IMG/VR virus record: IMGVR_UViG_3300008261_000447
Location: 1 to 20,485 of that record
DNA from: a virus
Reading direction: 5' to 3' (one strand)
Length of the DNA stretch: 20,485 nt
In this document: positions 1,075 to 12,053 of the stretch, one piece after another
Numbering within the stretch: position 1 is the stretch's first letter
Layout of the letters: every line of letters starts with the position of its first letter
The notes under the pieces: model-generated
What the model was told of the DNA's origin: nothing
Database searches by the model: none
What the model saw: only the letters and a program-made list of their open reading frames with translations
Program-made: the position numbers and the translations under genes

Positions 1075-1082
1075 TATTTATG
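1075..1082 (-). promoter_or_regulatory. T4-type late promoter element upstream of gp22
   Basis: The minus strand reads CATAAATA, one base from the T4 late -10 consensus TATAAATA. It ends 37 bases upstream of the gp22 ATG and contains the TAA stop of gp21. The call rests on the motif match and on the same arrangement at other genes here. Confidence 0.6.
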
Positions 1083-1557
1083 CAGAAGGATCTGCGACAA
1101 TATCTGCAGCAGTTGCAAGCATGAAATCTTCACCGACAACTGAATAACCTTCATTGGTTGGAAGTAAAGAACCAACACCACGAGAAGAAACACCCAAGCA
1201 AACGCCTTCACCTAAAAGAGAAGCAGCAATCTTACCCATTGGGGTTTCGAGAATTTTTGCTTTTCCAATAAAATTACTACCATCCCTTTCGAGCATTGTA
1301 ATTTTATGTGAAACTCTATCAAGATTTACAGTTGGACCATCAGGGTGTCCGAGTTCTCCAAGAGCACGACCTTTCTGAATAAAATTCTCGTTATATCTCT
1401 TTACCTCTCTTTCAAGAGTTCTCATTTCATAGAGTCTCTTATTTCTGTTTGGTTTATCTGCTTGAAGAAAAATTCCTTCAATAAAAAGGGATTTTTTACC
1501 GTTTTTTTCTTCGGTAATAACTTTAACCTTTTCGATTTCTTCTGTGATTAGTTTCAT
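1078..1557 (-). CDS. 21: Prohead core protein protease gp21 (short form, 159 aa)
   Basis: This is the maturation protease that in T4 cleaves scaffold, capsid and internal proteins after [Leu/Ile]-x-Glu. The N-terminal half carries LFIEGIFLQADKPNRNKRLY (24-43), which aligns with the T4 gp21 segment around YIEGIFMQAEVVNRNKRLYP. The putative catalytic His71 is in GELGHP, and the nucleophile Ser124 or Ser125 is in LGVSSRGVGSL. A conserved ADIVADPSA ends the protein. T4 gp21 is 212 residues and continues after the equivalent GPSA with PDAW and a tail; here a clean TAA follows PSA, so about 50 C-terminal residues are absent. The catalytic core looks complete, so activity is plausible. gp22 starts 39 bases downstream. 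The ATG at 1557 lies 5 bases after the preceding stop and has no strong ribosome-binding site. Confidence 0.9.
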   Translation of the reverse strand: MKLITEEIEKVKVITEEKNGKKSLFIEGIFLQADKPNRNKRLYEMRTLEREVKRYNENFIQKGRALGELGHPDGPTVNLDRVSHKITMLERDGSNFIGKAKILETPMGKIAASLLGEGVCLGVSSRGVGSLLPTNEGYSVVGEDFMLATAADIVADPSA

Positions 1558-3177: not shown

Positions 3178-3492
3178 TTAATCAGTCCAAGTTAATCTTT
3201 CTGGTTGATATCTTTGTGCCTTTCTTACTTTTGAGGAATTTTCTGTGATTGGATAAACATTATGAACTATTGCTCCAGGATATTCACCTTGCAATTGTTC
3301 TGTGAGTTTATTTTTATCCAACATTCTACCTTCTACTTCCATACGATATAATTTTCCTTCCCAAACTACATCTGCAAGAAATGATTCACCAACTGATTCT
3401 GATGAATTTTCAGAACCATTGATGTATAGATTTCCGTTGAAATCACCAGCAATATTAATTGATTCTGAAATAAATTGTCTGTATGATTTCAT
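3178..3492 (-). CDS. Predicted internal head protein with capsid-targeting sequence (104 aa)
   Basis: The N-terminus MKSYRQFISE fits the T4 capsid-targeting sequence MKTYQEFIAE found on internal proteins such as IPI and IPIII. It ends in Ile-Ser-Glu, which meets the [Leu/Ile]-x-Glu rule for gp21 cleavage. The family knowledge predicts packing inside the prohead and removal of the first 10 residues. Residues 38-81 (WEGKLYRMEV ... EYPGAIVHNVYP) resemble the C-terminal domain of the 383-aa protein at 10440-11591. The function of this domain is unknown. The gene starts 10 bases after the gp67-like stop, with only a weak ribosome-binding site, and probably shares its message. It ends 2 bases before the 434-aa gene. 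What the protein does inside the head is not visible. Confidence 0.8.
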   Translation of the reverse strand: MKSYRQFISESINIAGDFNGNLYINGSENSSESVGESFLADVVWEGKLYRMEVEGRMLDKNKLTEQLQGEYPGAIVHNVYPITENSSKVRKAQRYQPERLTWTD

Positions 3493-8469: not shown

Positions 8470-8640
8470 TTAGTCTAAAAGTATTGATTTGCATTCATAT
8501 GAATATGCAGAATGGATATTTACTCTTCCTTTACGAGTTAAATAAAATCCATCTATTAAATCTTTTATTTCACCGCAAACTCTACACTTTCTTTCTGTAA
8601 GAAAAACACAGTCTAGTTCGAACTGTTCCTCTAAATCCAT
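8470..8640 (-). CDS. Small Cys-rich (zinc-finger-like) protein, possibly C-terminally shortened (56 aa)
   Basis: 56 residues, MDLEEQFELDCVFLTERKC through YSYECKSILLD. It has a CxxC knuckle (Cys19-Cys22 in CRVCG), His43 and Cys50, which could bind one zinc but lack a complete second CxxC. From memory, marine T4-like phages carry small proteins of the type CRVCG ... DFYLTRK ... YSYECK-x-C near gp17. In those, a second CxxC and a basic tail follow; here the frame ends six residues after Cys50. The ATG overlaps the gp17 stop (TAATG), so translation is coupled. The gp18 ribosome-binding site lies just downstream. The function is unknown; nucleic-acid binding is a guess. The coding call rests on the motif, the overlap and the lack of other use for this gap. 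Confidence 0.65.
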   Translation of the reverse strand: MDLEEQFELDCVFLTERKCRVCGEIKDLIDGFYLTRKGRVNIHSAYSYECKSILLD

Positions 8641-10292
8641 TATCTATAATCCCACATATAAGATCTATCACCATATTCATCTGTATACCATCTATCACCA
8701 TCTTTATCTACAAAAGAAGTTTCCATTTCGGATAGACCATCAGTTATGAATCCAAAGGGTGACATATCCTGTTCTATTTGATTCTTTTGTTCTTCATAAA
8801 TTCTCTTTCGGATATCATTATCCGTCATTTCTTTAAAATATGGTTGAACAATCAACCAAGAAAATATTACCAAACACATTGCTAAGTCATCATTGCATCC
8901 ATCCTCTGCTTCAAATGATTGACTTTTTTGAATGAAGGTAGTTAGTTCACTGATAATATCATAGTCTTTTATTAGTAACTTATCATCTTCTATAACTGTC
9001 TTTAGGTTTGAGCATCCAACTTTTTTGACATTTTTAGACATCTTTACTCCTAGTTGAGATTTCTTACCAGAGAAACCTTGACCAACTAATTGTCCAGCAC
9101 GACCTCTCATCGCACACATCAAAAGATTGCTATACTCTAAATCAAAGTGGAGCATATTTGATACTTGCTCACCAATATCATTAACTTCAACCAGAACATA
9201 TGAGTAATTATATGCTCTCCCTACTTTATCAATAATTGAAGGAAAAAGAATTGGTTTTATATCATTATCCCTATATTTTGCCACAACTCTATATGGGAAA
9301 GAAGTGATATCTACGACAACAAATGCTGAATAGTCTTTGCCAGTTCCTCTAGCAACGTCAACTGTCATCATATAATTGTGGTCTTTTATTGGGTCTTCAT
9401 AAACATCAAGACCTTTATTTGATGTCAGTGGGTCTTCATAGACCATTGCACGAAGTTTAGACGGTGCAATCAAAGTATCAACCGAACCTAAAAATTCACA
9501 TTCAAACTCTTGAGTGAATTGACGTTCGGAGGTGTTGCGTATTGTTTCTTCCTTCCACGCAGCATCTCTACCAGGAACAGCACTCCAGTGAACTTCTAGT
9601 GGTCTATAACCATTTCTACCTCTCTCGGCATCGTGCCAGAGTTTGTAGAACATATTCATCCCGTTTGGAGTTGAGATGATAATAACTTTCGTTGTCTTAC
9701 CAGAAGAAATAGTGGGATATACAGAACTAAAGAATTGTTCTGCAATGTGGTTTGGAATAAACGCAAATTCGTCCAGGAAGATGATATTGAAAGAGTTCCC
9801 TCGGACAGCACTAGATGACGTAGATGCTGCTACAATTTTACTACCGTTCTCAAGTTCTAGTGAACCTTTGTTCCAAGAACCAACACCTTGCTGTAACCAC
9901 TTGGGAAGATTTTCATAAGAAAGTTGCAATCTTTGAAGAAGTTCCCTAGCAGTCTCTGCTTTGTTTGCAAGGATTGCAATTCTTATGTTATCATTAAACA
10001 AAGCATAATGAAGCAAATACGAAACTACTGTAGTGGATTTTCCTGTCTGTCTAGGTAATTTCGCAATATTGAATCTATTGTTATGGAAATTTGAGATTAA
10101 TTCTTTTTGGAAATCATACATTTCAAAGGGAATCAAACCTTCGTCAAGTGAAACAATCTTGACATAGTTCATTGCAAAGTAAACTGGGTCGTCTTTGCAC
10201 CTTAAATATTCTTGAATTTGGTCTGTCGTAAATTCAATTTGGACATTCTCTGCCTTAAGGTTTGGATTGCCCTTATAATGTTTATCAGTCAT
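8640..10292 (-). CDS. 17: Terminase large subunit gp17 (packaging ATPase-nuclease)
   Basis: 550 residues (T4 gp17 is 610). The N-terminal ATPase carries Walker A RQTGKST (81-87), Walker B IIFLDEF with Asp174 and Glu175, and the coupling motif IISTPNG (205-211). The C-terminal RNase H-like nuclease shows acidic residues Asp312 in TVDVARG, Glu369 in LVEVND, and Asp468/Asp469 in GCNDDLAM. gp17 cuts the concatemer, docks on the gp20 portal and pumps DNA into the prohead using ATP. The start overlaps the stop of the 59-aa gene (ATGA), and the stop overlaps the 56-aa gene start, so expression is coupled. Unlike T4, where genes 16 and 17 are adjacent, two genes separate it from gp16. Confidence 0.97.
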   Translation of the reverse strand: MTDKHYKGNPNLKAENVQIEFTTDQIQEYLRCKDDPVYFAMNYVKIVSLDEGLIPFEMYDFQKELISNFHNNRFNIAKLPRQTGKSTTVVSYLLHYALFNDNIRIAILANKAETARELLQRLQLSYENLPKWLQQGVGSWNKGSLELENGSKIVAASTSSSAVRGNSFNIIFLDEFAFIPNHIAEQFFSSVYPTISSGKTTKVIIISTPNGMNMFYKLWHDAERGRNGYRPLEVHWSAVPGRDAAWKEETIRNTSERQFTQEFECEFLGSVDTLIAPSKLRAMVYEDPLTSNKGLDVYEDPIKDHNYMMTVDVARGTGKDYSAFVVVDITSFPYRVVAKYRDNDIKPILFPSIIDKVGRAYNYSYVLVEVNDIGEQVSNMLHFDLEYSNLLMCAMRGRAGQLVGQGFSGKKSQLGVKMSKNVKKVGCSNLKTVIEDDKLLIKDYDIISELTTFIQKSQSFEAEDGCNDDLAMCLVIFSWLIVQPYFKEMTDNDIRKRIYEEQKNQIEQDMSPFGFITDGLSEMETSFVDKDGDRWYTDEYGDRSYMWDYR

Positions 10293-10468
10293 AAATTGTC
10301 AATTCTTAAACTTGCTAATGTCTCTTGATATTTTAAATGAAGTTTTACGTATGATTTTGCAATATTTTTAACTTGGTCAATATTCTCACAAGAATCAATT
10401 TCTCTTGCAATTCTTTCATACTCAAAGTTTTTAGTTAAATTATCTAAAGTTATTTGAGATGGATCCAT
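10289..10468 (-). CDS. Small helical protein upstream of gp17 (59 aa)
   Basis: 59 residues, starting MDPSQITLDNLTKNFEYERI and predominantly helical and charged. There is no recognisable motif, membrane segment or signal. GGAG lies 6 bases before the ATG. The gene overlaps the end of the 383-aa gene by 29 bases and the start of gp17 by 4 bases (ATGA). From memory, a similar short ORF often precedes gp17 in T4-like cyanophages. Its position suggests a packaging accessory or a coupling leader for gp17, but this is inference. The good ribosome-binding site and both overlaps support real translation. Confidence 0.7.
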   Translation of the reverse strand: MDPSQITLDNLTKNFEYERIAREIDSCENIDQVKNIAKSYVKLHLKYQETLASLRIDNL

Positions 10469-11591
10469 TTTTTTCTCCAGTAAATAATAACGGTTTAGTA
10501 GGGTCCTTTGTTGATGGTTTCCAAGATAGAACTACTGCTCCTGGATATACTTTATTAATTTCAAATGATACTTGCTCTTTAGATGGTCTCGTAAATTGAG
10601 GGAAGAACATTTGAACCATTAGACTCTTACCTCTCCAGTTTAGCACTATACCGTAAGTCGTGCCACGAGATTGTATAAATGAATAGTTTTCATCAACAGC
10701 AGGACTTCTTAATGGTTCTGCTTTAATAATATCAGTAAATATGTATTGTATTGGACTAAACTCATCCCTCCAATTTGAGTAGTCATAACTCTCTTTCTTA
10801 GTTTTATTCCCCCAGTTTTTTGCTCCAACTTTTCTACATCTTACTAAAGCACCAGATGCATATGCAGAAGGCCAAACTTTATAACGAGACTTTACTTTAG
10901 TGTAACAAGCATCTTTTTCTTCTGTCATCTTATTTTGAGATGCTTGTTGTTTAATTCTAGCATTTTTTGCATCTCTAACTGCTGCTTGCCTCTTCAAATC
11001 ACTTGCCAAATTATTTGCAAGTTTTTCATATGCTGCTTGTGGTTTTGGCATATCTTGCATCAGAGTATTTTCTGTTGCAACCATCTTTGCTTTTCCTTTT
11101 CTATCAGGATTTGGATCTTGACGGTTTTTACGTTCAAATGCTTTTTCTTCTTCATCATCTGAAAGTGCTGCCTTCATTTTACTGGAACCGCACTTTGGTT
11201 TTGTAGTTTGACCTGGTTGTTTTGCACAGGGTTTTCCTGCGTATTTACCACCCAATTGTACCCAACCAGGGGTGCCATCAGAAGAGCGACTCTTAGTAAA
11301 CCAGTCACGCAAAGAACTATCACCACTTTTTGACTCTTCATTGACTTTTTCTGCCTTTTTTAATCTCGTATAATAATCTGGCAATTCTTCTAAATGCTGA
11401 AGAGCAATCATTCTTGCCATTCTTTTATCACCAGTATGCTCGTGTTCAACTTTAATTCCCAGTTTTAATTCTGGTTTTAAAGCAGCAACAGAAATTTTAT
11501 GCTTTTTCGCAATTTCCTCTGGGGACATATACTTCTTAATAGGTCCCTTTGGGTCAGTTGTTTCTAAAAGGAATTGTGAAAAAGTTTTCAT
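10440..11591 (-). CDS. Multidomain predicted internal head protein with capsid-targeting sequence (383 aa)
   Basis: The N-terminus MKTFSQFLLE matches the T4 capsid-targeting sequence MKTYQEFIAE and ends in Leu-Leu-Glu, a gp21-type site. Residues about 22-80 form a helical domain (ELKLGIKVEHEHTGDKRMAR, LEELPDYYTRLKKAE) that recalls DUF5661-type proteins. Residues 91-176 carry LRDWFTKS, GWVQLGGKYAGKPC and PKCGSSKMK, with Cys122 and Cys134. A basic coiled segment (about 185-225) follows. Next is DACYTKVKSRYKVWPSAYAS (227-246) with Cys229 and Cys252. The C-terminus (about 270-375) includes NWRGKSLMVQ and VYPGAVVLSW, which resemble the 104-aa protein. The protein is very basic in the middle. It lies between gp16 and gp17, where T4 has nothing. 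A late-promoter-like element precedes it. DNA-associated internal or injected protein is inference. Confidence 0.8.
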   Translation of the reverse strand: MKTFSQFLLETTDPKGPIKKYMSPEEIAKKHKISVAALKPELKLGIKVEHEHTGDKRMARMIALQHLEELPDYYTRLKKAEKVNEESKSGDSSLRDWFTKSRSSDGTPGWVQLGGKYAGKPCAKQPGQTTKPKCGSSKMKAALSDDEEEKAFERKNRQDPNPDRKGKAKMVATENTLMQDMPKPQAAYEKLANNLASDLKRQAAVRDAKNARIKQQASQNKMTEEKDACYTKVKSRYKVWPSAYASGALVRCRKVGAKNWGNKTKKESYDYSNWRDEFSPIQYIFTDIIKAEPLRSPAVDENYSFIQSRGTTYGIVLNWRGKSLMVQMFFPQFTRPSKEQVSFEINKVYPGAVVLSWKPSTKDPTKPLLFTGEKNGSISNNFR

Positions 11592-11612: not shown

Positions 11613-12053
11613 TTATTTAGAATCTTCTGTTTGTGCCATATTTTGCTTAAGAAGTTTTTGAAGTTCGGCAGTAGATCCAACAAATAAAGTATTATTATTA
11701 GTAATACTTTTTGGTGCTGATGGGTCTTCTTCCTTAAGTTTTTTCATCTTCTGTTGAAGGTCAAGTAATTTATCAGTTGTGTCTGCAACATTTTTAATTA
11801 ATTGTCCAGCAACTTCAAATGCTCTTGGGGAATCTGATTGCTGTGCTATTTCCAATATTCCATCTATTGCTTCTTGACCCTTCTCAATTAAAGAGTACAA
11901 TTGCCCTCTAGTATAATCATAATCATATTCACTTTCTTCTTCACCTTTTTTTGGTGATTTAACTATTTTTGAAGACTCAGAAACTATTTCCTTGGCAATA
12001 GAGGTTGCTTCAATTTCTAAAGAATCATTTATTGCATCAAAATCATTTTTCAT
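11613..12053 (-). CDS. 16: Terminase small subunit gp16
   Basis: 146 residues (T4 gp16 is 164). gp16 recognises viral DNA and regulates the gp17 ATPase and nuclease. The central helical segment includes YTRGQLYSLIEKGQEAIDGI (48-67), AQQSDSPRAFEVAGQLIKNV and a coiled coil around LLDLQQKMKKLKEE, characteristic of T4-like small terminases. The N-terminus is acidic; the C-terminus TLFVGSTAELQKLLKQNM is also typical. The ATG overlaps the gp15 stop (ATGA), so translation is coupled to gp15. Downstream is the inserted 383-aa gene rather than gp17. Confidence 0.95.
   Translation of the reverse strand: MKNDFDAINDSLEIEATSIAKEIVSESSKIVKSPKKGEEESEYDYDYTRGQLYSLIEKGQEAIDGILEIAQQSDSPRAFEVAGQLIKNVADTTDKLLDLQQKMKKLKEEDPSAPKSITNNNTLFVGSTAELQKLLKQNMAQTEDSK
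11614..11621 (-). promoter_or_regulatory. Late-promoter-like element upstream of the 383-aa gene
   Basis: The minus strand reads TCTAAATA, one base from TATAAATA. It overlaps the last codons and stop of gp16 and ends 23 bases before the ATG at 11591. Confidence 0.5.

Follow-up and report, generated by a model that had tools for sequence, protein, structure and literature searches.

The internal proteins (IPs) of phage T4 are described as being injected and as inhibiting type IV restriction enzymes (PMC12373910). In one review, the cleavage consensus of the T4 prohead protease gp21 is given as L/I-x-E, and residues 4 and 7 of the IPIII propeptide are presented as the most important ones for targeting, residues 8 and 10 for processing (PMC9026906). 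Proteolytic release of domains has been proposed for the polyvalent proteins, and tagged internal proteins as well as head-packed multidomain proteins are already known kinds (PMC5512222).

The window analyzed here, an IMG/VR virus record of 20,485 bases, carries the structural module of a T4-like cyanophage. Genes for gp15, gp16, gp17, gp21 and an EndoVII-like ORF were identified by profile, while those for gp13, gp14, gp18-gp20 and part of gp22 were assigned from their order and their likeness to annotated relatives. The genes of concern here are:

1078..1557, minus strand: gp21, prohead protease and predicted cutter (Pfam Peptidase_S77, E 1.8e-32)
3178..3492, minus strand: CTS protein starting MKSYRQFISE, 104 aa, phrog_1742 (E 1.7e-39), with one module-4 domain
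8640..10292, minus strand: gp17, terminase large subunit (Pfam Terminase_6N, E 9.2e-24)
10289-10468, minus strand: 59-aa ORF, phrog_27081, between the 383-aa gene and gp17
10440..11591, minus strand: modular protein of 383 aa, T4-GC119 / phrog_727 family (ORF; phrog_727 E 4.4e-81, residues 55-274)
11613..12053, minus strand: gp16, terminase small subunit (phrog_445, E 2e-53; Pfam DNA_Packaging, E 8.5e-8)

The 383-aa ORF announced by the original prediction is real: it lies on the minus strand with an ATG start and a stop codon within 10440-11591, and upstream of the ATG its frame stays open for 7 codons only. Its place between gp16 and gp17 is confirmed, the interval being shared with the 59-aa ORF, and the two terminase genes are indeed close neighbors in T4, where genes 16 and 17 overlap. 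The 59-aa ORF shows 42% identity over 50 residues to an S-SCSM2R ORF annotated as NblA; by Pfam, neither ORF gave an NblA match. The late-promoter-like motif CTAAATA has 4 matches for 5.2 expected and was dropped. The gp21 of the window has a shortened C-terminus, ending IVADPSA, and misses ~182 bases that four relatives have. Its frame continues in all 18 other loci holding the stretch (in one of them to the contig end), intact gp21 copies are present in relatives, and the shortening may be an assembly or population defect.

The start MKTFSQFLLE, with its Leu-Leu-Glu, had been read as similar to a capsid-targeting sequence (CTS), and it does match the strict T4-type motif, defined as an N-terminal M-K-x-[FY]-x-x-[FYW]-hydrophobic-x-Glu, with a predicted gp21 cut after Glu10 (MKTFSQFLLE/T, the slash here and below marking the position behind the Glu). 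Conservation was followed in alignment A1, which comprises the window protein and 19 of 33 listed full-architecture relatives; a tag-like start was a selection criterion for these rows, which were not selected on E10 or position 8. Glu10 (P1) is invariant in all 20 rows and position 8 (P3) is L, I, V or F in 20/20, while five different residues occur at position 9 (P2) and three (A, S and T) at position 11. The original prediction had named the absence of the tag from all close relatives as evidence that would speak against it; the strict tag is carried by 45 of the 86 other family ORFs, that is, with the window included, by 46 of 87 ORFs and not by the other 41, in a set that includes near-identical loci. 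As a motif-based assignment, the reading of this start as a CTS is well supported. Family members that have no CTS must reach heads by another route, or not at all. Several different bodies are preceded by a shared N-terminal domain ending near VMYATANKLA, found in eight distinct examples among the CTS-less members (loci L002, L003, L005, L104, L106, L112, L118 and L160), a domain that may be an alternative targeting signal.

How far the strict motif can be trusted was assessed in four genomes not selected through it (T4, S-CREM2, S-SM1 and S-CRM01), where it gave 11 matches versus 1 in total for three rearranged controls. In T4 it starts three ORFs, ipII, ipIII and gp61.1, and fails to pick up ipI and alt. 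In S-CREM2 (OR473000) it finds gp6 (SAM hydrolase), gp14 (kinase, GTG start), gp136 and gp154 (cytidylyltransferase), and a relaxed version brings in gp13. All five of these proteins are listed in the S-CREM2 virion proteome of 52 proteins (PMC10665884, Table 3). With ~219 coding genes in this genome (221 features in the record, two of them tRNAs), we calculate a chance of ~0.003 for all four strict matches to fall among the 52; the authors of the proteome mention that non-structural proteins were possibly not separated from the virions because of incomplete purification (PMC10665884). The single strict match in S-SM1, SSM1_190, is the cytidylyltransferase T4-GC190, which is given among the proteins detected in S-SM1 virions (PMC3037559); the relaxed motif adds four chance-like ORFs there. 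The three strict matches of S-CRM01 are g33 (between gp16 and gp17), a cytidylyltransferase and an acetyltransferase. In a set of 301 sequences, which contain 14,141 open frames, the strict motif starts 134 distinct ATG-started ORFs, which fall into 19 clusters by BLAST of their bodies; four rearranged motifs gave 0 ORFs, a Glu at position 9 gave 26 (Glu-Glu runs) and a Glu at position 11 gave 2. The count of 134 is inflated because part of the loci were selected through CTS patterns: 115 loci came from scans with a CTS octamer among the patterns, and 12 stretches were fetched through a CTS-pattern match (15 places in 6 of 10 records for the pattern, none for the pattern read backwards).

Several further CTS-like starts were observed along the way. 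The T4 protein gp61.1 (NC_000866, 19130, minus strand), 54 aa long and functionally uncharacterized, matches the strict CTS motif with its start MKTFKEFIKE, which makes it a candidate for a further internal protein of T4. Three CTS-started genes lie close together at 216.3-219 kb of a 247-kb contig (G002; loci L091 and L186), one of them with the tag MKTYQEFISE, nearly identical to that of T4 IPII/IPIII. In S-CREM2, RFASFMAEA occurs close to the N-terminus of the Cas9-like gp12, and gp15 begins with MNFSEFNES; the S-CRM01 kinase starts with MISFDQFLSE. A phrog_1742 protein (L152, 4207-4563, plus strand) has an N-terminus resembling two tandem CTS-type stretches.

Behind the tag, the multidomain layout claimed in the original prediction holds, with a DUF5661 domain recognized by Pfam, two Cys-containing modules and a C-terminal domain:

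11562..11591, minus strand: CTS decapeptide MKTFSQFLLE, predicted gp21 cut after Glu10 (strict motif)
11334..11561, minus strand: module 1, DUF5661, residues 11-86 (Pfam match over residues 24-81, E 1.3e-13)
11070..11333, minus strand: module 2, SGDSSLRDWF..GW..C..C, residues 87-174, behind VNE85
10920..11069, minus strand: extra unit, residues 175-224, ending MTE224, absent block-wise in relatives
10689..10919, minus strand: module 3, DACYxKVK..WPSAYASGALV..C, residues 225-301, ending VDE301, near-fixed in sequence in alignments A1 and A2
10443..10688, minus strand: module 4, C-terminal domain, residues 302-383, delimited by the structure model and by homology to the 3178-3492 protein and S-CREM2 gp137

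Of the 19 aligned relatives, 5 lack the extra unit as a whole (L011, L013, L019, L020 and L026). The predicted cysteine pairs, Cys122/134 and Cys229/252, are present and invariant in A1 (20 rows) and A2 (32 rows); of the four metal ligands expected for a zinc-binding module, modules 2 and 3 thus have two invariant Cys each, with no conserved His in either alignment and with low model confidence in this region, and a metal site common to the two modules is possible. Above the Pfam cut-off, DUF5661 was the only match of the 383-aa protein, with no peptidase domain, and no literature on DUF5661 was found among open-licence papers. The whole-chain structure model (mean pLDDT 54, pTM 0.23) is usable for module 4 only, where residues 311-360 (pLDDT 79-86) are modeled as strand, strand, helix, strand. 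Among solved structures, the A4 profile matched 0 chains up to E 1. Among the folds listed by VIA-align, the matches to the model, namely a ribosomal protein (best, Z 4.8), T7 Gp2 (4.6) and phi29 p6 (3.9), have Z values within the range of common folds, and no function was therefore read from them.

The original prediction had also pointed to another CTS-like start in the window, and this is MKSYRQFISE at 3178-3492. In addition to what was noticed then, the two tagged proteins of the window have a domain in common: the body of the 3178-3492 protein is homologous to module 4 (hhalign probability 92, E 6.1e-7), and in all seven aligned sequences the domain stands behind [VT]xE. Module 4 is also homologous to a segment of S-CREM2 gp137 (probability 90, E 1.7e-6), in an alignment that begins at Glu301 on one side and at LEEAVRLNK on the other; gp137 has in addition a DUF6321 domain (E 3.5e-10). 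Both gp137 and the CTS protein gp136 are encoded between gp16 and gp17. In S-CREM2 virions gp136 is reported with 8 unique peptides and 24.1% coverage, and gp137 with 4 peptides and 4.1% (PMC10665884), so that the virion detection of a modular member concerns one distant protein of another phage at 4.1% coverage.

A feature absent from the original prediction is a hydrophobic-x-Glu motif, which corresponds to the gp21 consensus, at most module junctions of the family, behind unrelated upstream sequences. The candidate sites of the window protein are LLE10, VNE85 (or Glu86), ATE174 (weak, with Ala at P3), MTE224 and VDE301; four further motifs, LEE69, AFE153, AYE187 and TGE373, lie inside modules or near the end. 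At Glu301, [VI]xE is found in 20/20 rows of A1, with eight residues at P2 and five at P1', and the Glu is invariant in 32/32 rows of A2. For seven hand-chosen module patterns, the motif lies within the 10 residues before the module in 52/61, 65/90, 83/92, 39/58, 1/2, 5/5 and 14/18 distinct contexts, versus shuffled means of 7.4, 30.1, 28.6, 22.0, 0.5, 1.3 and 2.3, counts that are not independent because the contexts are related to one another. Taking the Glu nearest the module, a hydrophobic residue stands at P3 in 36/47 heptamers for module 2 and in 66/77, 27/39, 7/10, 18/21 and 3/3 for five others, and at P2 instead in 5, 2, 4, 0, 2 and 0. The junction before module 3 (DACY) is the weakest, with a hydrophobic P3 in 33/76 (24 each at P4 and P5), 21 of 110 contexts without a nearby Glu, and no site at this junction in the L047 row of A1. 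The junction consensus is strong for four module types and weak for module 3.

Forward and reversed versions of the motif, compared over slightly different contexts, gave 59 vs 22 of 69, 66 vs 39 of 101, 85 vs 36 of 92, 40 vs 30 of 59, 5 vs 3 of 5, 16 vs 3 of 20, 2 vs 1 of 3 and 10 vs 2 of 10. A breakpoint test on 71 representatives, which makes no use of chosen modules, placed 336 of 971 N-side breakpoints near hydrophobic-x-Glu (null mean 205, maximum 239); their number peaks at offsets 0 to +2 (65, 44 and 57). The reversed motif is enriched at N-side breakpoints too (283/971; null mean 170, maximum 206), as are C-side breakpoints (268/942, null mean 196; reversed motif 228, null mean 163). 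Junctions are Glu-rich in general, and because the reversed motif and the C-side are also enriched, the argument rests on the composition-keeping shuffles and on the P3/P1 pattern. In other proteins, some of these modules stand directly behind a CTS, as in MKYFSEFLYE/ANKSGDSSLRDW (L049) and in MKTYQEFISE/AKKCWPGYKKKG and MKTFKEFIEE/SWSQKYKKSIDC (both L091), with counterparts behind internal sites in EVSE/ANKSGDSSLHDW (L051), TTNE/AKKCWPGYEKKG (S-SSM5) and DVKE/GWSDKYKRSIDC (DSL-LC02). The gp23 of ten relatives has [IL]xE, for example FLYE/T, where T4 gp23 has FLTE/A, which we take to be its cut site.

The head-targeting tag is followed by small basic modules that likely protease sites separate from one another, and the gene therefore probably gives rise to several small proteins that enter the head together with the DNA. 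We consider it slightly better than an even chance that this is a head-internal polyprotein, docked through its CTS, cut by gp21 after Glu10 and probably at its junctions, whose basic pieces would be packed with the DNA and probably injected. This reading starts from what is directly observed, namely the tag and its conservation, the module layout and the junction motif, and from published mass spectrometry, in which tagged proteins and the same-locus, module-4-sharing gp137 are listed in S-CREM2 virions (PMC10665884). As with the internal proteins of T4, the decapeptide would attach the protein to the core of the prohead, and the phage's own gp21 would cut after Glu10 and probably also after the junction Glu near 85/86, 224 and 301, with 174 as a weaker site. 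Four or five basic pieces, each of ~5-10 kDa (5.5-9.6 kDa when computed with one cut one residue early), would result from these cuts and would stay among the packaged DNA. The internal cuts are what the sequence pattern points to, and we infer the retention of the pieces, their contact with DNA, their injection and any action in the host. With a pI of 9.7 for the whole protein and 9.1-10.2 for the predicted pieces, the earlier idea of a DNA-associated cargo is kept as that of a basic head cargo, whose association with DNA is possible.

Alternatively, the protein might be a CTS-tagged internal protein cut only once, after Glu10, with internal motifs that are uncut relics of fusions or short core-binding helices. 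Junctions that look like a whole CTS, LSYKDFIDLCE/GNPTTRML in S-SSM5 vs MKSFQQFMAE/GNPTTRMM in L126, are in line with relics, and, to judge from the review, the propeptide is the one place where T4 IPs are cut (PMC9026906). However, relics would not keep P3 and P1 fixed while P2 and P1' are free, as they are at E301, and we hold a single cut to be unlikely. Still less probable, in our view, is a role in the prohead core (scaffold) comparable to that of T4 gp22, gp67 and gp68, in which most of the fragments made by gp21 would leave the head before packaging. The T4 core proteins are described as having several cut sites and as being mostly removed (PMC9026906), and for S-CREM2 gp137 the low coverage would agree with a protein that is mostly removed (PMC10665884). 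In contrast to the T4 core proteins, described as acidic or scaffold-like (PMC9026906), all predicted pieces are basic and IP-like, and gp137 and the tagged gp136 are still present in mature S-CREM2 virions (PMC10665884).

The remaining alternative touches on the gene's location and on its family. Searched against 50,697 phage records, the 383-aa protein gave matches (E up to 0.01) in 384, of which 364 bear the name Synechococcus, Prochlorococcus or Cyanophage and only 1 reaches at least 80% coverage; a scan of IMG/VR confirmed 414 stretches, and the best 80 of these were retained. S-SSM5_108, annotated GC 119, is a tblastn match, and the relatives in S-SSM5 and S-SM1 carry the annotation T4-GC 119. 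A family member, or a modular protein that has domains in common with it, adjoins gp16 in 9/9 cyanophage genomes viewed: it lies 0-2 genes after gp16 in DSL-LC02, S-SSM5, Syn9, S-P4, S-SCSM2R, S-SM1, S-CREM2 and S-CRM01 (in the last two, the counted protein is a modular one sharing domains with the T4-GC119 family), and in P-SSM2 it precedes gp16, between gp15 and gp16. The gp16-gp17 interval is reported as a hot spot in cyanophages, which, also according to annotated genomes, carries petE, PTOX, gnd and zwf as well (PMC3037559). Neither the gene nor its place is unique, because the T4-GC119 / phrog_727 family is widespread in cyanophages, and the view of a peculiar insertion between the terminase subunits is not supported. 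A terminase accessory factor, acting outside the head on the packaging motor as the original prediction had also considered, is suggested by the position of the gene, which falls in the gp16-gp17 interval in the window and shortly behind gp16 in the eight other cyanophages, but it is very improbable given the P-SSM2 member with its different place, the other cargo of the hot spot, a CTS that directs proteins into the prohead, and the 41 of 87 family ORFs without a tag.

The family proteins are mosaics of DUF5661, SGDSSLRDWF, DACYxKVK and CWxGY modules, DUF6321, the C-terminal domain and others. Extending the polyprotein reading, we tentatively propose, as a possibility that falls somewhat short of even, a cassette system of cyanophages in which small basic modules, often Cys-containing and with their own protease sites, would be shuffled between single-module CTS genes and polyproteins, gp21 releasing injected peptides that would serve to take over the host or to counter its defences, in a set that varies with the phage. 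T4-like cyanophages occur widely in the ocean, and to our knowledge hardly anything is known about what they inject besides DNA. With the CTS motif, likely virion cargo could be recognized from sequence in a simple way, and there would be a reason why non-structural proteins such as the SAM hydrolase, the kinase and the cytidylyltransferase turn up in S-CREM2 virions. Cutting at the junction sites, if it occurs, would make capsid maturation a polyprotein-processing step as well. In our searches of the open-licence literature, we found no description of a chain in which shuffled modules follow a CTS and prohead-protease motifs mark the junctions, nor of gp21 used as a polyprotein-processing enzyme.

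Among the described systems, the 383-aa protein can be compared to the T4-GC119 / phrog_727 family, to which it is homologous over residues 55-274 and with which it shares the locus; many members have no CTS, and show a DUF6321 terminus replacing or accompanying the module-4 domain. With T4 IPI, IPII and IPIII it shares the decapeptide (K2, aromatic residues at 4 and 7, a hydrophobic one at 8, Glu10) in front of a basic body, and the principle of several unrelated bodies behind one tag; it is a basic protein with the strict N-terminal motif, in a phage that has a gp21, though shortened in this contig. T4 IPs are single bodies, whereas this chain has several modules and, where they join, motifs of the protease type. 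The polyvalent proteins found in phages and conjugative elements likewise have several domains per chain and are head-packed in phages, and are described as often embedding their own metallopeptidase and large enzyme domains (PMC5512222), whereas gp21 would act here in trans. The 383-aa protein was not filed in that class, having by Pfam no embedded peptidase, a feature that is frequent, not universal, in it. Finally, head proteins of phiKZ and SPN3US and T4 gp22, gp67 and gp68 are similar in being cut after x-x-Glu at several sites by gp21-type proteases (PMC9026906); those cuts are described as removing propeptides or scaffold, whereas cuts in the 383-aa protein would separate shuffled modules.
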